A DNA stretch of 39,952 nt, taken from the IMG/VR virus record IMGVR_UViG_3300046001_009672, positions 1 through 39,952 of that record; one strand, 5' to 3'. Shown piece by piece: positions 1 to 33,693 of the stretch. The notes under the pieces are model-generated. The model had not been told where the DNA came from. It saw only the letters and a program-made list of their open reading frames with translations, and did no database searches. Made by a program: the position numbers and the translations under genes. Positions within the stretch are counted from its first letter, which is position 1, and every line of letters starts with the position of its first letter. This stretch comes from a virus.

Positions 1-259
1 TAATTTCTTTAACTAGTTTATCGATATTAACAACACAACCTAAACCAATAATTGATTTAATTCCATAAAATACACCAACAGGAACCAAATGAGTTACGAA
101 TTTATTACCATTATGATAAACAGTATGCCCTGCGTTTCCACCCCCATTATATCTAATAACGTGAGTGTATTCTTTACTTTGGGCTAAAAAATGAGCAACT
201 TTACCTTTACCTGTGTCTCCTGCTTGCAAATCTACAACTACATCAGCATATTTTATCAT
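1..259 (-). CDS. purA: Adenylosuccinate synthetase (PurA/PurZ family), N-terminal part, cut by window edge
   Basis: This reading frame starts with ATG at 257-259 and runs out of the window, so only about 86 residues are visible. They match the start of adenylosuccinate synthetase, which joins IMP (or a dGMP analogue in PurZ) to aspartate using GTP. The P-loop-like motif GDTGKGK is at residues 14-20 and NAGHT, with the catalytic-type His45, at 42-46, followed by a THLVP stretch. The DLQ-G-TGKG spelling resembles PurZ proteins of 2-aminoadenine phages, but the Asp that PurZ replaces is still present (Asp15), as in true PurA. The leader is GAAAAATAAGTT, the A-rich start signal used by neighbouring genes. 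Family call is firm; PurA versus PurZ activity is open. Confidence 0.88.
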   Translation of the reverse strand, partial: MIKYADVVVDLQAGDTGKGKVAHFLAQSKEYTHVIRYNGGGNAGHTVYHNGNKFVTHLVPVGVFYGIKSIIGLGCVVNIDKLVKEI

Positions 260-262
260 AAC

Positions 263-556
263 TTATTTTTCTTCAGTTTTTTTAAATTTAGGAGAACAAC
301 CAAGCAGGATTGTGTTTTTAAATAAATCCTGCCTATGTGACCTTATTTTATATTGTTTAATAACATCACTCATAATTTCAGAAAATTCATATTCACAAAT
401 TTCATGAGCGTTATAATCAATTACCTTTTTACCATTTTCATTTGTAGTAGCGTTTTTTAACAATTCATCAAAATCGGCTGGTGGGGTAGATGCTTTATAT
501 AATTTCCTGTAGCACTCAGTCAATGCTTTTTCTTCATTTGGGGTTACATACATCAT
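263..556 (-). CDS. Unrecognised 97-aa protein
   Basis: A 97-residue soluble, mixed-charge protein that I do not recognise. It has no signal peptide, membrane segment or cysteine motif. Its start overlaps the TGA stop of the upstream phosphatase (ATGATG shares bases with TGA), which suggests translational coupling. The second Met is an equally possible start. It ends 3 nt before the purA-like start codon, so the phosphatase, this gene and the purA-like gene probably share a transcript. Confidence 0.8.
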   Translation of the reverse strand: MMYVTPNEEKALTECYRKLYKASTPPADFDELLKNATTNENGKKVIDYNAHEICEYEFSEIMSDVIKQYKIRSHRQDLFKNTILLGCSPKFKKTEEK

Positions 557-1272
557 AATTTCCCTACTTTAAGTTCACCATCGTATATCAAATATTCCTT
601 TGAAGGTAAAGCATCAATCATATAGTATTTTCCTCCCATTGATTTATCTGTTGCTTTCATATCAATAGAGTTGACTTGGGTGTGGCCTATGATTTGGATG
701 AACCTACCTTTGATAGAATCTTTTCCTCTTTTTCTATTTGATATTAACAAAGACCGTGTACGAATCCAAATTGGTGATTGAACTACATCATCACCATACG
801 GGTCCCATCCATTGAATCTAAAAATAAATGGACTATATGTGAATGTTTCATTTAATTTCTCAACTAAATTATCACAATTCCAAGTGTTTTTAAACCACCT
901 ATCCATAAATACTGAAGATACACCTGCGTGGGTACATAGGAACTTATCAAACGAATATGCCATTTGAAGGTGTTCCATATTTTCTTTCAGCACCATTCCT
1001 ATATCAAATTTAAGAGCAGGTTGAAAACCACTATAGGTTTCACCAACATTCATATAATGAAAGTCGTGATTACCTACTAATAGGATAACTTCTTTACCGC
1101 TTGTCTTTTTATATTCAACTATTTCCTTAAAGTTGTGTATTTGATCTATACCTGGTACACTAAAACTATCAAAGTAATCTCCAATAAAGATAACCCTGTC
1201 AGGGTTTTCTTTTGCTACAATGTCCTTCCAAATTGGACGGCCGTGGATATCTCCAATGAATATTGTTTTCAT
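553..1272 (-). CDS. Calcineurin-like metallophosphoesterase
   Basis: A 239-residue protein with the ordered metal-binding motifs of PP1/PP2A-like and diadenosine-tetraphosphatase-like phosphoesterases: GDIHG at 7-11, GDYFDS at 31-36, GNHD at 67-70, THAGVS near 114-119 and IIGHTQ near 195. The two-metal active site therefore looks complete. Members hydrolyse phosphoproteins or dinucleotides; lambda phage carries a protein phosphatase of this class. The substrate here cannot be read from sequence. The gene heads its own transcription unit: a strong promoter match lies immediately upstream, with the -7 box only four bases before ATG. Confidence 0.9.
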   Translation of the reverse strand: MKTIFIGDIHGRPIWKDIVAKENPDRVIFIGDYFDSFSVPGIDQIHNFKEIVEYKKTSGKEVILLVGNHDFHYMNVGETYSGFQPALKFDIGMVLKENMEHLQMAYSFDKFLCTHAGVSSVFMDRWFKNTWNCDNLVEKLNETFTYSPFIFRFNGWDPYGDDVVQSPIWIRTRSLLISNRKRGKDSIKGRFIQIIGHTQVNSIDMKATDKSMGGKYYMIDALPSKEYLIYDGELKVGKL

Positions 1273-1276
1273 ACTT

Positions 1277-1308
1277 AAATATACAAAATAATTTCCGTAT
1301 TTCCAAAT
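1277..1308 (-). promoter_or_regulatory. Bacteroidota-type promoter for the phosphatase gene
   Basis: On the minus strand, ATTTGG (1303-1308) is followed after exactly 17 bases by TGTATATTT (1277-1285). The -7 box lies four bases upstream of the ATG at 1272, so the predicted transcription start falls at or next to the start codon. The message may be leaderless or nearly so. The 17-bp spacing is shared with the other promoter matches in this window. Confidence 0.7.
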
Positions 1309-1359
1309 CTTACTTACACAAATACATCATATTCCTGGTGTATAAGTGAAGGAAAACTG

Positions 1360-1388
1360 GACAAATAAACGAGTTATCAGTAATAAAA
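1360..1388. repeat. Copy 1 of a 29-bp repeat flanking a small membrane gene
   Basis: A 29-bp stretch matches 1573-1601 at about 25 of 29 positions in the same orientation; the shared core is CGAGTTAT-N-AGTAATAAAA. This copy covers the stop codon of the 52-residue membrane gene, and the other lies upstream of that gene's start. The role is unknown. Confidence 0.5.
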
Positions 1389-1535
1389 TTTGCTAAGTAT
1401 CCAGCAACCAAAAATGATTACTCCGCTTACTATAGCTGTTATGATACCTATAAAAACAATATCTCTATTTGTAACGTATGGTTCAAACCATTCACCACCA
1501 TCGTATTTGTCTAACCAGTCTTTTATATTTTTCAT
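1377..1535 (-). CDS. Small single-span membrane protein (52 aa)
   Basis: A short reading frame of 52 codons plus TGA, starting with ATG at 1533-1535. The first ~25 residues are polar with a WLDKYDGGEWFEP stretch. Residues about 27-47 form one hydrophobic helix (IVFIGIITAIVSGVIIFGCW) and the protein ends SKFYY. The charge layout suggests N-terminus outside or in the cytoplasm with one anchor. Function is unknown; small membrane proteins of this size in phages may be holin-like or exclusion factors, but nothing specific supports that. Direct repeats flank the gene. Confidence 0.6.
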   Translation of the reverse strand: MKNIKDWLDKYDGGEWFEPYVTNRDIVFIGIITAIVSGVIIFGCWILSKFYY

Positions 1536-1572
1536 AATCGGTAAGTTTAACTTCGGTGGGGGTTGGGGGTTA

Positions 1573-1601
1573 GATAAATATGCGAGTTATAAGTAATAAA
1601 A
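1573..1601. repeat. Copy 2 of the 29-bp repeat
   Basis: Same orientation and about 25 of 29 positions identical to 1360-1388. It lies between the stop of the 91-residue gene and the start of the 52-residue membrane gene. Next to it is a G-rich run on the plus strand (1555-1570, mostly G and T), C-rich in the transcript. Confidence 0.5.
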
Positions 1602-1652
1602 CAAAAATTATGAGTTTAATTTATTTGAAAAATCTGGCAGTGACTTCCCATA

Positions 1653-1928
1653 CTAATCCCCACCCATAACATCAATCTCTTTTAACTGCTCAAATAACTC
1701 TTTCACTTCAAAAGATTTTTTTTGCAACATTTCTGTAATAACTTCAATTTTACCAATCCTATATGCGTTAAATCTTTGATATTCTTCCTTTTTCATTTTA
1801 TCTTCCGCCACCAATAATAAATCCGCTTTTACTTCTGATGTTTCATTTCTTTTAATTACTTCAATAATATCTTCAACTGCTGTCGTGATTTTTATTGGTT
1901 CAGTTTGTTCTCCATTAAATTTTTCCAT
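1653..1928 (-). CDS. Unrecognised 91-aa helical acidic protein
   Basis: I place the start at the ATG of 1926-1928 because it is directly preceded by AAAAATAAAAATT, the start-site motif of this phage. The frame stays open for 21 further codons upstream, but that extension runs into an inverted repeat and encodes an unlikely sequence. The protein is Glu/Lys-rich and probably alpha-helical, with no cysteines or membrane segment. Function unknown. Confidence 0.72.
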   Translation of the reverse strand: MEKFNGEQTEPIKITTAVEDIIEVIKRNETSEVKADLLLVAEDKMKKEEYQRFNAYRIGKIEVITEMLQKKSFEVKELFEQLKEIDVMGGD

Positions 1929-1977
1929 AATTTTTATTTTTAAATTGTATAATTTTTGTTTTACATACTTATAACAA

Positions 1978-2010
1978 ATGATAAACAACATTAAAACGAT
2001 TGTTTATCAT
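1978..2010. repeat. 11-bp perfect inverted repeat with 11-nt loop
   Basis: ATGATAAACAA at 1978-1988 is mirrored by TTGTTTATCAT at 2000-2010, with an 11-base centre. It lies between the stop of the 84-residue gene at 2034 and the start at 1928. There is no U-run after the stem, so it is a poor intrinsic terminator. A protein-binding dyad or a leader hairpin in the message of the 91-residue gene fits as well. Confidence 0.6.
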
Positions 2011-2033
2011 CCCACGTTATGTGTAATAAAAAT

Positions 2034-2288
2034 TTAATCCCAAGTCCTACTAACATCTTCCAAGTTCTCACCAGTGAAAGATTTGAACCTAATTTTAAGA
2101 TTATCTATAGTATCAAGTTCAATACCCCATATCTCATGATCAGTATTTAGTTGATATAATTCTTTATCAGGTGTTATGATAATCTTAAAATTATCATTTT
2201 CCTTATGAAAAAACATTTGTCCAAGTTCTTCATTTTCCTTATACTGAACAAAGTATTGTGTTATTTGGTTCAAATCTTTTATATCCAT
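2034..2288 (-). CDS. Unrecognised 84-aa protein
   Basis: An 84-residue acidic protein with an alternating hydrophobic pattern suggestive of a small beta-rich fold (for example FKIIITPDKELYQL and IWGIELDTIDNLKIRF). No known motif. A-rich leader (AATATAAAAAAT) before ATG. It follows a weak promoter match just downstream of the previous stop codon. Function unknown. Confidence 0.75.
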   Translation of the reverse strand: MDIKDLNQITQYFVQYKENEELGQMFFHKENDNFKIIITPDKELYQLNTDHEIWGIELDTIDNLKIRFKSFTGENLEDVSRTWD

Positions 2289-2292
2289 ATTT

Positions 2293-2324
2293 TTTATATT
2301 TTCATTGTTTCGAGATTTCCAAAT
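2293..2324 (-). promoter_or_regulatory. Weak promoter-like site
   Basis: ATTTGG (2319-2324, minus strand) is followed at 17 bases by AAATATAAA (2293-2301). The -33 box and spacing match the family seen elsewhere, but the -7 box departs from TGTATATTT. It would serve the 84-residue gene. Confidence 0.35.
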
Positions 2325-2831
2325 TTAATCCCACCAACTCTTTAGGCCTGTTTTCTTGTCTTTTATGATACTACAAAATTCTCCCCATTCCTTTTTTTCC
2401 AATTCAGCTGAATATGCAAATACTTCACCATTGTGTTTTCTTTCTTCATCTGTTAGATTATCTTCATAAGTAAATGAGTTGCCATCACTATCCAGTGGAA
2501 TAAAATCACCATCACGATCAATTAACTCACCACATTTTTCTTCAGCCATATCCATATACACATAAGTATCCAATTGGTTTTTTAGGATTTCACTTGCTCT
2601 TTCCATTTTAGCAGCTTTAGGAATGCGGGTAGAATCAACTTCTGTACTTTTAGTTTTGGTTTTATCCTCCATATGTTCAATAGCTATCTGCATAAATTGT
2701 AATAGAGAATGGTAATCCCACCACCTAAATTCATAAAGTGGTTTTCTAAACCTCCAAATATTTTTGAAAAAGTTTATTGTACATTTTACCTGATAGATAA
2801 ATTCGGTATAGTAATATTTAAGGCTGTTCAT
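2325..2831 (-). CDS. Unrecognised 168-aa protein, aromatic-rich
   Basis: The N-terminal 50 residues are rich in aromatic and basic residues (IWRFRKPLYEFRWWDYHSLL), the rest is acidic, and it ends in SWWD. The middle (about 60-105) looks helical. There is no clear membrane span, although residues 1-35 could be amphipathic. The start overlaps the previous stop by 14 nt. I recall similar W/D-rich small proteins in large phages, but I cannot name a family. Confidence 0.8.
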   Translation of the reverse strand: MNSLKYYYTEFIYQVKCTINFFKNIWRFRKPLYEFRWWDYHSLLQFMQIAIEHMEDKTKTKSTEVDSTRIPKAAKMERASEILKNQLDTYVYMDMAEEKCGELIDRDGDFIPLDSDGNSFTYEDNLTDEERKHNGEVFAYSAELEKKEWGEFCSIIKDKKTGLKSWWD

Positions 2832-3216
2832 AGTCTGATATTAATTGGTTAAGTAAATCTTTTCTTTCCTCATCTGTCATAATTTTATATTTTGAGAGAT
2901 AATAATCATTTACTTTATTTTCTTCTAAATACTGATGTAGTTCTTCTATGGTTCTGCATAGTTCATTTCCATCTTTATCTGTCATTGTTAAGTCGGTTCG
3001 TTCTCCAAAATTCTTTTCATAACACCACCAATCAAATGTATCTCTACCTTCCCGACCATAGATTGAACCAATCAACATAGAGATAACACTTTCGTATGGG
3101 CCTGTAAAGTTTATATGGTCAATACCTGCTTCATATGCTTTATCTAATTTTTCTTGTTGTTCTTTAAGTTCAAAAACAATTCTTTCAAATACTTCCAGTC
3201 TTATGCTGTAATCCAT
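2818..3216 (-). CDS. Unrecognised 132-aa acidic protein
   Basis: An acidic soluble protein of 132 residues with no motif that I can assign. The sequence IGSIYGREGRDTFDWWCYEKNFG around residues 50-72 is its most distinctive part. It overlaps its upstream neighbour by 16 nt and its downstream neighbour by 14 nt, so it is probably co-transcribed and translationally coupled with both. Confidence 0.8.
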   Translation of the reverse strand: MDYSIRLEVFERIVFELKEQQEKLDKAYEAGIDHINFTGPYESVISMLIGSIYGREGRDTFDWWCYEKNFGERTDLTMTDKDGNELCRTIEELHQYLEENKVNDYYLSKYKIMTDEERKDLLNQLISDYEQP

Positions 3217-5929: not shown

Positions 5930-7021
5930 TTATGCCCCTGTTATAAAAAACGATTCATGCCCTAAGATACAATACCAGCAACTATGGAATGTCTCTATAA
6001 TTTTATTATGAACTAAATTAAAATCACATTTGCTATTTCTAAAATAAAGTCGTGTGTTTGGGTTAGTTGAAGAAAGGGTTGATTTTATTAGGGCAAAATC
6101 AGAAAGTATATTATTATCTACTTCAATAGCAATTTCATCAAATTTTTGATTTAAAGTATAATCATAGTAAATACTGTGATCATAATATAATTCTTTTAAT
6201 AGTTGCTTTTCATATAATTTTATATCAGATTTAATCAAAAGAATATCTTTAGATTCTTTAGATTTACAAAAATCCCCAAAAGATAATATTCTTGCAGTTT
6301 CCATTATTGGGAGGAAGTAAGTATAAGTACTTAGCTTATCAGAACATTTTAATTCAGGAAATTTATTCTCAATAAATAATCTTTCTCTTTCAATGTCGTG
6401 CAAAGTTTCTATAGATACTCCTTTTCTTGAAATAGAATTAAAATCACTTTTATCATATTGGTATAAAGTTCGAGGTAAATAAAGCCATTTACCTATTGTT
6501 TCTGTGTGTCTTACAATATTAGTATCATTTTGAAAATAAAGTAAAGTTCCATCATCGAAATCTTTAATTACATTTTTAAAAGCACGACACATAGGAGTTA
6601 AATCAAAAGTACTACTATTAAAATTCCAATATTCGGGAGCAGTTGAAATTCCATTATTGTGATATGCAAAAGCAAAACAACTTATACCTGCAACTTCAGG
6701 ATATTTTAAGAACATATGATGATATACTTCCAAAATTTTAGGATAAGCATAATCATCACTATCAAACATTACAACAATATCTCCCGTTGTCCCTCGTTGT
6801 GGGTTATAAAAACATTCTTTTTTACGAGACTGCTCATAATATTTAACCCTATGGTCTTTAGCACATATTTCTAACAATTTTTCTCGAGCTGAATTTTCTT
6901 CGGAAAAGTCGTCAGTTACAATCCACTCCCAATTAGTATAAGTTTGATCTAGTACCTGTTGATAGACTGATTCTACTAAATGACCTCTTTTATAAAACGA
7001 TGTGCTTATACTGAATTTCAT
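5930..7021 (-). CDS. Family 2 glycosyltransferase
   Basis: A 363-residue protein with a GT-A fold start (SISTSFYKRGHLVESVYQQV), the NWEWIVTDD segment at 30-38 and the metal/nucleotide-binding DSDD at 87-90, as in GT2 enzymes. It transfers a sugar from a nucleotide donor; acceptor and sugar are unknown. The C-terminal ~170 residues are not recognisable. It stands outside the main glycan cluster among small phage genes, with the promoter of the next unit just behind its stop codon. Confidence 0.87.
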   Translation of the reverse strand: MKFSISTSFYKRGHLVESVYQQVLDQTYTNWEWIVTDDFSEENSAREKLLEICAKDHRVKYYEQSRKKECFYNPQRGTTGDIVVMFDSDDYAYPKILEVYHHMFLKYPEVAGISCFAFAYHNNGISTAPEYWNFNSSTFDLTPMCRAFKNVIKDFDDGTLLYFQNDTNIVRHTETIGKWLYLPRTLYQYDKSDFNSISRKGVSIETLHDIERERLFIENKFPELKCSDKLSTYTYFLPIMETARILSFGDFCKSKESKDILLIKSDIKLYEKQLLKELYYDHSIYYDYTLNQKFDEIAIEVDNNILSDFALIKSTLSSTNPNTRLYFRNSKCDFNLVHNKIIETFHSCWYCILGHESFFITGA

Positions 7022-8022: not shown

Positions 8023-8310
8023 TTATACTAAGTTTAATTGACGTGCTCTACAATAACTTACCATCTTCCCATTAATAGGATTCAAGTATTTCTTTTGTGA
8101 CTTTGGCATTTTATCTTCTAATACCTTAGCTATACTTTGACTTGGTTCAAATTCTACAGATACAGGACCACTCTTACGAATATCTAAATCGTAATACCAA
8201 GTATCCATACTACCATCTTCATTAGTGTAAACACGAGTGAATTTGGTTGCGTTGACAAGCATTACTGCTTCTTCGCTTTTAACTAATTTTGGTCTTCCCC
8301 TTTGTGCCAT
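8023..8310 (-). CDS. Unrecognised 95-aa protein with AT-hook-like N-terminus
   Basis: The N-terminus AQRGRPKLVK contains GRP flanked by basic residues, the core of an AT-hook, so weak minor-groove binding is possible. The remainder is a strand-rich domain (TRVYTNEDGSMDTWYYDLDI) with a basic end. It overlaps the upstream gene by 28 nt. A DNA-binding role is inference only. Confidence 0.78.
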   Translation of the reverse strand: MAQRGRPKLVKSEEAVMLVNATKFTRVYTNEDGSMDTWYYDLDIRKSGPVSVEFEPSQSIAKVLEDKMPKSQKKYLNPINGKMVSYCRARQLNLV

Positions 8311-8438
8311 AACTTTGATTTAGTTTGTTTACGTGAATATTTAGTTTTATCGCCGTGATTTCTTTGAATCATCTTACGTCGTATCAAAGCCGCCATATGA
8401 CCTTCTTCTTTACTGCGTCTATCGTTTCTATCAATCAT
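8283..8438 (-). CDS. Small basic protein (51 aa)
   Basis: A 51-residue, very basic protein (IDRNDRRSKEEGHMAALIRR at the start, KYSRKQTKSK further on), so probably nucleic-acid associated. The frame is open up to 8480, but the promoter -7 box at 8447-8455 lies inside that extension, so I chose the ATG at 8436-8438. Function unknown. Confidence 0.62.
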   Translation of the reverse strand: MIDRNDRRSKEEGHMAALIRRKMIQRNHGDKTKYSRKQTKSKLWHKGEDQN

Positions 8439-8446
8439 AACAATGT

Positions 8447-8490
8447 AAATATACGAACAAGCCAAATGATTTCCAAACAAGGCATATGAC
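8447..8490 (-). promoter_or_regulatory. Promoter with upstream GTCATA element
   Basis: GTTTGG (8473-8478), 17 bases, then CGTATATTT (8447-8455) on the minus strand, with GTCATA (8485-8490) seven bases upstream of TTTGG. A second GTCATA lies at 8496-8501. A 14-bp stretch around it (8493-8506) is identical to 5917-5930. The palindrome array at 8506-8600 lies right behind. Confidence 0.68.
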
Positions 8491-8505
8491 GCTTATATGA
8501 CGTTT

Positions 8506-8600
8506 TAGCGCGTTGATCATCAACGCTCTAACGATTTATGTAACGCGTTGATAATTAACGCACTATAAAATCATGTAGAGCATTAGTAATTAACGCGCTA
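8506..8600. repeat. Array of three 25-bp palindromes at 35-bp period
   Basis: Three related units occupy 8506-8530, 8541-8565 and 8576-8600, so starts are exactly 35 bp apart. Each is an imperfect palindrome of the form TAG-N-GCGTT ... AACGC-N-CTA. In the first unit the arms are 12 bp with one mismatch around a single central base. The 10-bp spacers both end in ATG. The array begins five bases past the stop of the SWIM gene and ends at the promoter region of the 51-residue gene. Candidate roles are a set of operators, an origin or partition site, or RNA hairpins. Confidence 0.85.
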
Positions 8601-8604
8601 TATA

Positions 8605-9042
8605 TTACAAACCTAATTTCTTTTCTATTTCAAAAATGTGCTTACATTTTCGAATTTTTGATCTCCACACACCAGGACAATTACAACTCAATTTCGAACC
8701 ATTTTGGCGTACAATATACTGCATATCAGGATTACTTTCAGATTGAAATTTCCATACATTTGACTGCGCAGGAACAGGTGCTTCTACTTGAGGTTTAACC
8801 CATTCTATATCGTTCAATGTAGTTTCAGGTAATACCTCTTGCCACGATGGTATGATATATTTTTTACCATTAAGTGTTACTAAAGCAGGAGATATACTTC
8901 CTGTGTATTCATATTTGAATACTCGCGAGCCAACTATTGGACCATAATTAGAGCCGTGAGTAAACGGCTTACCATCAGGAACGTGTATAATTCGGTTTCT
9001 GAGTGTGCCGTACTTGTTTAAGTTGGTAAATATTCTAAGCAT
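8605..9042 (-). CDS. SWIM-type zinc-finger protein
   Basis: A 145-residue protein with a C-terminal SWIM finger: Cys120-x-Cys122, ten residues, then Cys133-x-His135. SWIM domains bind DNA or proteins and occur in recombination and helicase-linked factors. The N-terminal ~90 residues form an unassigned strand-rich domain with a Pro/Ala linker near 84-93. It is the first gene after its own promoter. A regulatory or DNA-binding job is likely, and it is a reasonable candidate to act on the palindromes just behind it, but that is inference. Confidence 0.82.
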   Translation of the reverse strand: MLRIFTNLNKYGTLRNRIIHVPDGKPFTHGSNYGPIVGSRVFKYEYTGSISPALVTLNGKKYIIPSWQEVLPETTLNDIEWVKPQVEAPVPAQSNVWKFQSESNPDMQYIVRQNGSKLSCNCPGVWRSKIRKCKHIFEIEKKLGL

Positions 9043-9059
9043 AACCTTTTAATTTGCCT

Positions 9060-9103
9060 AAATATACATTGTAGAATGTCATAAGCCAAATCATTGTTAT
9101 GAC
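9060..9103 (-). promoter_or_regulatory. Promoter with upstream GTCATA element for the SWIM gene
   Basis: ATTTGG (9086-9091), 17 bases, TGTATATTT (9060-9068) on the minus strand; GTCATA (9098-9103) again sits seven bases upstream of TTTGG. Confidence 0.72.
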
Positions 9104-9118
9104 TTAGTTATTACTTTT

Positions 9119-9946
9119 TTATTTCCATCTATCATATGTTTTACATATTTCCTTTGCATTATCTGTACCACAAAAATGATAAATATAAGGGTGCATATGA
9201 CCTCTAAATATATTATCAGCCCAATTAGGAGGATAATCAGAAGTTGATTCCCAATCAATTAATTCCCCAGTATTTGGATCAAAATGGTCTAATACCCATC
9301 CATTTTTTCCTGCTATATCAGGCATTATCCAATTCCATTTATCATTTAAAATTTTAATGTTTAGATAATGAGAGAAAAATACATTGGAGAGATTTTGATC
9401 GCCAAGGTTTGATTCTAAAGCATCTAAAATTTCAGAGTTTTGTTCTATAATGCTTAAAAAAGATATAAGTTTATCTTTGATTTTTGGAGGAGAACAAACA
9501 ATAACTCCATTATTTAAATAACGCTGAGAGTATTTATTTGGGTCAAATTGTAGAGTATTAGAAATACATTCAAAATTAAAATTATTAATTATATTTTTTA
9601 CAATAGTTTCTTTTATCCAATCATTATTAAATCTATTAGGATTTCCATCTAAAACCCCTGCCAATTCAAAATCTTCTAGTTCATTAAAGATATTAAGAGA
9701 CTGGTTATTTACTATTATATCACTATCTAAAATTAGGATTTTATCATAAGTAGAAAATTTTTCTATAACTTTAAACCGGGTAAAAAATAATTTGCTACTA
9801 ATATTGCGTCCCTTATTCTCTAAATGATTTATTTCAATGAAGTCCGAGTTCCATTTTTTTGCAATGGCTCTTATTGATTCAATCGAATTTTTATTTTCTT
9901 CAGGATTAGGGTAGGCATTTAGAACTATTATACAATTTTGGTTCAT
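9119..9946 (-). CDS. GT-A type glycosyltransferase (GT8-like)
   Basis: A 275-residue protein whose N-terminal half shows a GT-A layout: strand IIVLNAYPN, helix, then KILILDSDIIVN with the metal-binding DSD at 74-76. The hydrophobic strand before DSD and the following NNGVIVCSPP segment resemble GT8-like or related retaining transferases. Donor and acceptor are unknown. It overlaps the 63-residue gene upstream by 4 nt. Confidence 0.8.
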   Translation of the reverse strand: MNQNCIIVLNAYPNPEENKNSIESIRAIAKKWNSDFIEINHLENKGRNISSKLFFTRFKVIEKFSTYDKILILDSDIIVNNQSLNIFNELEDFELAGVLDGNPNRFNNDWIKETIVKNIINNFNFECISNTLQFDPNKYSQRYLNNGVIVCSPPKIKDKLISFLSIIEQNSEILDALESNLGDQNLSNVFFSHYLNIKILNDKWNWIMPDIAGKNGWVLDHFDPNTGELIDWESTSDYPPNWADNIFRGHMHPYIYHFCGTDNAKEICKTYDRWK

Positions 9947-10769: not shown

Positions 10770-11441
10770 TTATCTTCTTGAAACAAGCGAATATGGATCA
10801 TCATCTGTTTTATCTTCATACAAACCTAATTCTCTTAAGCGCCTAACATGATATTCATCTAACTCAAAGTTTACATTATCAGACGTTTTATACATTTTAG
10901 TACCCGTTTCAATTTGCTTTTCATCGCGGTCGTTGAATATCTCACCTACATATAAGTAATAACAGTTATAACACAGCATTTGCAAATTATCTAAATGATA
11001 GTAGTTATGGTCCCCATTCTTAAAATGCAAAAATAGAGGCATTTTATAATCTGTTACTCTCCGTTCGTGAAAACCACAATTATAGCATTTTTCTTCCAAA
11101 TAATTTTGTTCTATTAACCGGCGTTTTATTTTTTGAGGATCAAAATTAGTAGCGTTAATTCTACCTTCTACTATACCTTGAAGAGATGGTTCTGCTTTTC
11201 TGTTTGGATGAGAAGTTAAATGCTTTGGAATACCTTTACCACATTGATTTTTATGCAACTCAAATAATGTTTTACCTGTGGCTTCATCCACATAGTGTTT
11301 CATCCACATTTTAACGTGCGGATAAGAACAATGCAAATAACGAGTCATAGCCTTCACCGACTTAGTTTTTTCCATAGCAGAAAGTAATACTTCCTTGGCA
11401 AGTGGGCGAGGCGGTGCTCCTTTTCTTTTATTCGTACTCAC
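10770..11441 (-). CDS. HNH-type zinc-binding nuclease-like protein
   Basis: A 223-residue protein. Residues 1-60 look like a helix-turn-helix region (AMTRYLHCSYPHVKMWMKHY). Residues 115-165 carry a treble-clef zinc site, Cys119-x2-Cys122 and Cys157-x2-Cys160, framing HFKNGD (139-144) and HLDNLQMLCYNC, the HNH-endonuclease signature. Such proteins may be homing nucleases, packaging helpers or DNA-binding regulators. The 14-nt overlap with the upstream zinc-ribbon gene suggests coupling. Fold call is good; cutting activity is unproven. Confidence 0.82.
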   Translation of the reverse strand: MSTNKRKGAPPRPLAKEVLLSAMEKTKSVKAMTRYLHCSYPHVKMWMKHYVDEATGKTLFELHKNQCGKGIPKHLTSHPNRKAEPSLQGIVEGRINATNFDPQKIKRRLIEQNYLEEKCYNCGFHERRVTDYKMPLFLHFKNGDHNYYHLDNLQMLCYNCYYLYVGEIFNDRDEKQIETGTKMYKTSDNVNFELDEYHVRRLRELGLYEDKTDDDPYSLVSRR

Positions 11442-33507: not shown

Positions 33508-33693
33508 TTAATCTAAATTGACATGATTGTGGACCATTTTTCTAAATCCTTCGTCCGTATTATACAAATGAATCGTTCGGTCTACAAGTTTTTGTAACGA
33601 GAATTTGTATTTTATTGTGTTGATTTTGAATTCTTCAAACAAGTCGCTTTGTACTTTTACGCTTGTTAATATTTTTTCTGCTTTTGTACTCAT
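33508..33693 (-). CDS. Ribbon-helix-helix type regulator (61 aa)
   Basis: A 61-residue protein with the small N-terminal strand KILTSVKVQSDLFEEFKINT followed by two helices (KFSLQKLVDRTIHLYN), a pattern of Arc/MetJ-like RHH repressors. The ATG follows AAAAATAAAAATT. An AT-rich palindrome (33714-33729) lies immediately upstream, overlapping the -7-like box, which suggests autoregulation. It lies between nuclease and glycan genes, so it might control the cluster. Confidence 0.72.
   Translation of the reverse strand: MSTKAEKILTSVKVQSDLFEEFKINTIKYKFSLQKLVDRTIHLYNTDEGFRKMVHNHVNLD

Follow-up and report, generated by a model that had tools for sequence, protein, structure and literature searches.

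The OR and OL operators of phage lambda each place three odd-centred pseudo-palindromes, about 24 bp apart, beside a phage promoter, which they overlap. The array described here comes from a 39,952-nucleotide stretch of viral DNA (IMG/VR record IMGVR_UViG_3300046001_009672, positions 1 to 39,952; hereafter the window). It resembles the lambda operators in having three odd-centred pseudo-palindromes adjoining a phage promoter, but its units are 35 bp apart and lie wholly upstream, none of them overlapping a promoter element in the window, and several such arrays occur per genome.

A second point of comparison is class I activation by CRP, which shows a 10.5-bp periodicity and falls off in one-turn steps (PMC6301791). 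The sites of the CRP distance series at lac are, like those described here, dimer-type palindromes upstream of the −33/−35 element at positions one turn apart (PMC6301791). The differences are that CRP acts from one site, whereas up to three or four are found here, and that the promoter here is of the Bacteroidota type. For that type, PMC6847099 gives a −33 element TTTG and a −7 element TAnnTTTG/TANNTTTG for the primary sigma factor.

The nearest named relative is Flavobacterium phage immuto (Immutovirus), the GroEL of which is about 61% identical. It shares with the window the order of its GroES/GroEL, RHH, glycosyltransferase and HNH genes and has a DUF932 gene, but unlike the window it has no palindromes, and no GTCATA repeat was seen at the promoters inspected. 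In the window, the HNH and RHH-like genes are separated by a stretch of about 20 kb (12348–33489) that is rich in glycosyltransferase, methyltransferase and sugar-nucleotide genes; the immuto counterpart is shorter, at about 12 kb.

The analysis presented below indicates that the array is very probably a cis-acting operator of the promoter downstream of it. Our preferred reading, to which we assign a probability of roughly 0.6, is that of a cooperative operator array for a putative dimeric regulator, placed upstream of the promoter at class I-like positions, the regulator being more likely an activator.

The palindrome array and its promoter

The features of the locus are as follows.

8023 to 8310, minus strand: second downstream gene, 95 amino acids; kept in the two closest relatives (contigs G002 and G003) and weakly in G019 and G020
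8283 to 8438, minus strand: first downstream gene, encoding a small basic protein of 51 amino acids; kept in G002 and G003; no family match
8446 to 8453, minus strand: −7 promoter element TATATTTA, 19 bp past TTTGG; aligned with the consensus in PMC6847099
8473 to 8477, minus strand: −33 promoter element TTTGG; aligned with the Bacteroidota −33 TTTG of PMC6847099
8485 to 8501, minus strand: direct repeat GTCATA-N5-GTCATA with an 11-bp period, between the array and −33, at about −60 to −44
8506 to 8530, no strand assigned: palindrome unit A, promoter-proximal, TAGCGCGTTGATCATCAACGCTCTA; kept in L001 and L002
8531 to 8540, no strand assigned: spacer S2, 10 bp, reading CATAAATCGT on the minus strand; family consensus CAYAAAYCRT
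8541 to 8565, no strand assigned: palindrome unit B, the middle one, on which the dyad of the entire 95-bp array is centred
8566 to 8575, no strand assigned: spacer S1, 10 bp, reading CATGATTTTA on the minus strand
8576 to 8600, no strand assigned: palindrome unit C, distal, reading TAGCGCGTTAATTACTAATGCTCTA on the minus strand; same letters in L001
8605 to 9042, minus strand: upstream gene, its stop abutting the array, with the SWIM-type motif CxC..CxH; no Pfam match

The original prediction described three 25-bp palindromes at an exact 35-bp period, and this description holds. Three imperfect palindromes with the consensus TAGNGCGTTNATNATNAACGCNCTA start at 8506, 8541 and 8576, at start-to-start spacings of exactly 35/35, and the arrangement lies beyond chance. 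The 17-bp core GCGTTNATNATNAACGC is exact in the first and second units and has two mismatches in the third. At up to three mismatches the window contains six core matches against 1.05 expected, a number reached in no shuffle. In a sequence-blind test of the window, the array at 8506–8600 came out as the top-scoring set of three evenly spaced 25-bp palindromes, with 29 of 36 pairs; the maximum in 30 first-order Markov sequences of equal length was 26. The motif TAG-N-GCGTT, first thought to be shared by all units, had to be relaxed, because the second unit starts with TAA and the third has GCATT; the common half-site is TARNGCRTT. As had been noted, ATG closes each of the 10-bp spacers on the plus strand.

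The array was first regarded as a true tandem structure. It is not merely tandem: the 95 bp also form one large inverted repeat in which the first unit resembles the reverse complement of the third, and the outer units mostly turn their TAGA half toward the array centre. Across the family arrays, spacer S1 agrees with the reverse complement of S2 at 5.3 of 10 positions (3.0 when shuffled); the spacers of the window itself, symmetric at 3 of 10 positions, are among the less symmetric ones. The mirror layout of the outer units suggests an ordered complex of three dimers.

The array is non-coding and its right edge lies 5 bp from the stop codon (8605) of the SWIM-type ORF, in agreement with the first description. 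The promoter placed next to it is also present, and it can now be located more precisely: it reads on the minus strand, at about 8501–8446. On that strand the array is followed by 4 bp, GTCATATAAGCGTCATA (the 11-bp direct repeat), 7 bp, TTTGG, 19 bp and TATATTTA; that is, the array sits 5′ of a promoter of the form GTCATA-N5-GTCATA-N7-TTTGG-N19-TATATTTA. The −33 TTTG, the −7 TAnnTTT and their fixed spacing are those of the Bacteroidota primary-sigma promoter as set out in PMC6847099. The window promoter differs from the consensus given there in that its −7 element ends in A, the final G not being kept, and in having the GTCATA direct repeat in front, a feature not described in the passages of PMC6847099 on this promoter. 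The repeat is possibly a contact site for the α subunit of RNA polymerase or for a second factor. The transcription start is predicted at about 8441 (minus strand). With the ATG at 8438 the leader would be only about 3 nt long, so that either position, start codon or start site, may be slightly off.

Promoters of the same form but free of palindromes are found at window positions 5936 and 9114 (both minus strand), the latter being the promoter of the SWIM-type gene itself. Close variants without palindromes are present in L246, L253, L262 and L264. The GTCATA/TTTGG-N19 element is a general promoter class of these phages.

Distribution among related phages

Two contigs were reached through the SWIM protein, and both retain all three units at their 35-bp period; further contigs were reached by DNA pattern scans. 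The original prediction had staked itself on conservation in related phages, and both the units and the period are conserved there. Group A consists of seven uncultured phage contigs with 12 three-unit arrays, all 12 of which are spaced 35/35; the contigs are all fragments and mutually related, and the 12 arrays amount to fewer than 12 independent observations. Contig G001 has four arrays in 17.8 kb and G015 has three in 34 kb. Contig G005 (IMGVR 3300046003_006630) corresponds over L011 3339–6391 to window positions 1–3053 at 99.87% DNA identity and extends the window leftward by 3.3 kb, with an array at L011 350–444, about 2.9 kb past the left edge. As this contig is nearly identical to the window and carries another array, the phage type of the window has at least two.

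In group B (G006, G007, G008 and G016), a cluster comprises one, two or four units, and the spacing is 25, 48 or 49. The palindromes of group C are of the ACGTT type and stand back to back, at a 25-bp spacing, before a RecA-like operon; the group was fetched by the RecA-like protein only and is thus unbiased with regard to palindromes. In the group C sequences (L334, L326, L330, L339 and L388) the palindrome is of the same kind, but the promoter that follows it is another one, TTGACCGCGACT..TATCTTTATTATATAA. A matrix scan of 11 contigs found no palindromes beyond the group A arrays and the group B clusters of one to four units, and none in shuffles; the matrices were built from the same sites that were later scanned, the control being the empty shuffles and the related genomes.

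The site is absent from seven further related-phage contigs of 159–179 kb, which were searched with two slightly different patterns, and from immuto over its whole 160 kb. Contig G024 (IMGVR 3300032308_002078, 165.7 kb) is a palindrome-free relative. As immuto and G024 possess related genes and promoters but no palindrome, the control would be dispensable or have been replaced there. Dozens of TTTGG-N19-TATATTTA-type promoters, many of them in one region, are found in G024 (L374–L382). Searches of named phages by DNA and by the SWIM protein gave no match, a single 19-base match (E = 3) being taken as chance. Among the matches listed for the pattern AACGCNCTA-N{5,35}-TAGNGCGTT, most were chance, and no paper on such palindrome arrays was found in the literature.

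This distribution bears on two alternatives. The first is that a host regulator, exploited by the phage, binds the array. The palindrome is nearly unchanged across phages with proteins that are only 30–60% identical and is patchy among close relatives, both of which would fit a host factor. However, bacterial and archaeal genomes (one per species, 84,980 species) contain only 13 isolated single matches in unrelated phyla, which is about the chance level. The SOS boxes of Bacteroidota are CTAA-N5-TTAG and GGA-N5-TCC, and by inspection the units do not match them (PMC8565304). We consider a host regulator to be improbable.

The second alternative, an iteron replication origin or a partition centromere, was among the functions initially proposed and draws on the regular spacing of the repeats. 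It does not survive the comparison. The arrays are not confined to a single locus per replicon: there are four in G001, three in G015 and at least two in the phage type of the window. Up to four of them stand within 17.8 kb, and each precedes a promoter of its own with which it is in phase; such recurrence before promoters speaks against both an origin and a centromere. Relatives have zero, one, two or four units, some related phages lacking the array altogether, and no skew change is seen at the array. This is the least probable of the readings, with next to no likelihood.

Helical phase, probable mode of control and RNA folding

Downstream of all 12 group A arrays, and in the same orientation, come GTCAT-N6-GTCAT, TTTGG (or CTTGG/GTTGG), 19 bp and a −7 element, and the group B clusters likewise lie consistently beside promoters in the same orientation. 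In group A, seven arrays have their last palindrome 28 or 29 bp before TTTGG, and the other five have it 39 bp before; in the window the nearest unit ends 28 bp before TTTGG. The group B distances, counted on the sequence, are 29, 40, 29, 19 and 29 bp. The gap classes of 19, 28–29 and 39–40 bp are steps of one helical turn. Because the group A contigs are related, phasing was assessed with one value per locus type; this gave R = 0.96 at 10.5 bp, a value reached in none of 100,000 uniform draws. No locus was found by means of its palindrome-to-promoter distance. In group C, palindrome and −7 element are 49 apart in one phage; a close relative has 38, and this difference of 11 bp is once more one turn. 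The exception is L330, which at 32 falls outside the group C ladder of 38, 39 and 49. In the 1060–1180 region of L330, the single palindrome stands directly after a tRNA-like 3′ end.

With the −7 element numbered as in F. johnsoniae, the centre of the nearest site lies at about −68, −77/−78 or −88/−89. The class I centres of CRP are −61.5, −71.5 and −82.5 (PMC6301791), and the analogy is therefore one of ladder and not of register. The positions one turn apart, upstream of −33, make it most likely that the regulator activates through contact with RNA polymerase. In the mechanism that we propose, each 25-bp palindrome would bind one dimer of a single regulator, with TAGNGCGTTRAT as the half-site. 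Three dimers would lie side by side at the fixed 35-bp spacing, the outer sites being mirror images about the middle one. The complex would act on the minus-strand promoter just downstream of the array, where the regulator would activate transcription by touching RNA polymerase in the class I style. A cooperative operator was one of the functions put forward in the original prediction; the sites are conserved, stand before promoters, are helically phased and recur before orthologous genes, and the cooperativity itself we infer.

The same operator array could instead serve a repressor in the manner of lambda OR/OL, three cooperative dimers reaching over the GTCATA repeat or looping between arrays. 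The three odd-centred operators are reminiscent of lambda in their cooperative-looking spacing, looping would be possible between the several arrays of a genome, and repression by looping or by blocking GTCATA would leave much of the same pattern. Against this, no site overlaps −33 or −7 in any array, the nearest one ending 19–40 bp upstream of TTTGG, and promoter phasing at a distance is more typical of activators. Furthermore, no repressor gene was recognised alongside, in contrast to lambda: among the genes scanned, those around the window array and in some relatives (the contigs being fragments), none had a repressor-family match. A repressor, the main rival reading, appears doubtful, and activation remains the preferred mode.

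The array could also act as RNA: the upstream transcript would then end in three hairpins, or in a single long one, serving as a terminator, protector or processing site, and a series of RNA hairpins had been suggested at the outset. The array can indeed fold: in most arrays the 95 nt form one long hairpin (z of −2.5 to −10), and the arrays always closely follow a stop codon. The basis of the long hairpin is the resemblance of unit C to unit A, and of spacer S1 to S2, in reverse complement. Covariation was at or below that of shuffles by all measures, whichever structure, the long hairpin or three separate ones, was assumed. Complementary bases occupy pair 4/22 in 2 of the 31 distinct units, against 9.6 expected; at the variable pair positions the two palindrome halves vary independently, and A–C mismatches within units are at least as common as G–U. 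The independent variation of the halves and the avoidance of complementarity at 4/22 fit degenerate protein half-sites, not stems. Despite the striking free energies, neither the two explicit structures nor the single-palindrome pair counts showed compensating base changes, which indicates that RNA hairpins are not what is selected. No intrinsic terminator (stem plus T tract) is present in 8300–9200, the array has no Rfam family match, and relatives with a single palindrome still keep the promoter phase. A function as RNA is accordingly very unlikely.

Putatively controlled genes and candidate regulators

The palindromes recur before orthologous genes in different phages. A DUF932 gene is preceded by three units in G004 and by one each in G006 and G016. 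A RecA/KaiC-like ATPase gene follows three units in G001 and in G015, where the units lie one short ORF upstream of it, and two units in G016 and in group C. A small gene follows three units in G005, G001 and G015 and one unit in G008. Judged from these gene neighbourhoods, the array most likely controls a small gene set that would include the RecA-like ATPase and DUF932 genes in relatives.

Several proteins were considered as the regulator. The RHH-like protein (33508–33693), the HTH-HNH protein (10770–11441) and the SWIM protein are all present in the palindrome-free G024, and the RHH and HNH proteins also in the palindrome-free immuto; as they occur in relatives without palindromes, presence singles out none of them. 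The AlphaFold monomer of the RHH-like protein is all-helical (pLDDT of 74, pTM of 0.41), and its fold is not settled by the model. A small HTH-like protein of 81 amino acids (L297 9701–9946; L369 15451–15690) is 88% identical between groups B and C, many other proteins common to the two groups being far less alike. It has no Pfam match and only a weak HTH match in PHROGs, is absent from immuto and G024 and was not found in the group A fragments. Many phages that carry it, however, have no palindromes. All of the group A contigs are fragments, so that the regulator gene may lie outside them.

A more specific version of the activator reading can be offered tentatively. The regulator might be a phage-encoded activator of a new family, three dimers of which would form a symmetric 95-bp platform that docks on RNA polymerase via the GTCATA repeat, the number of sites (one to four) tuning the individual genes of a regulon with recombination genes among its members. 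If true, this would be a bacterial-virus counterpart of a fixed-geometry enhancer complex.

Descriptions of transcription control in large Bacteroidota phages are few, and the promoters of these phages depart from the textbook form. The palindrome arrays, the GTCATA repeat and TTTGG-N19-TATATTTA provide a defined and testable promoter grammar that is common to uncultured phages. The quantised spacing predicts that a half-turn insertion would abolish control and that a full-turn insertion would not. The grammar names candidate controlled genes, and the array offers a DNA bait for the putative regulator.
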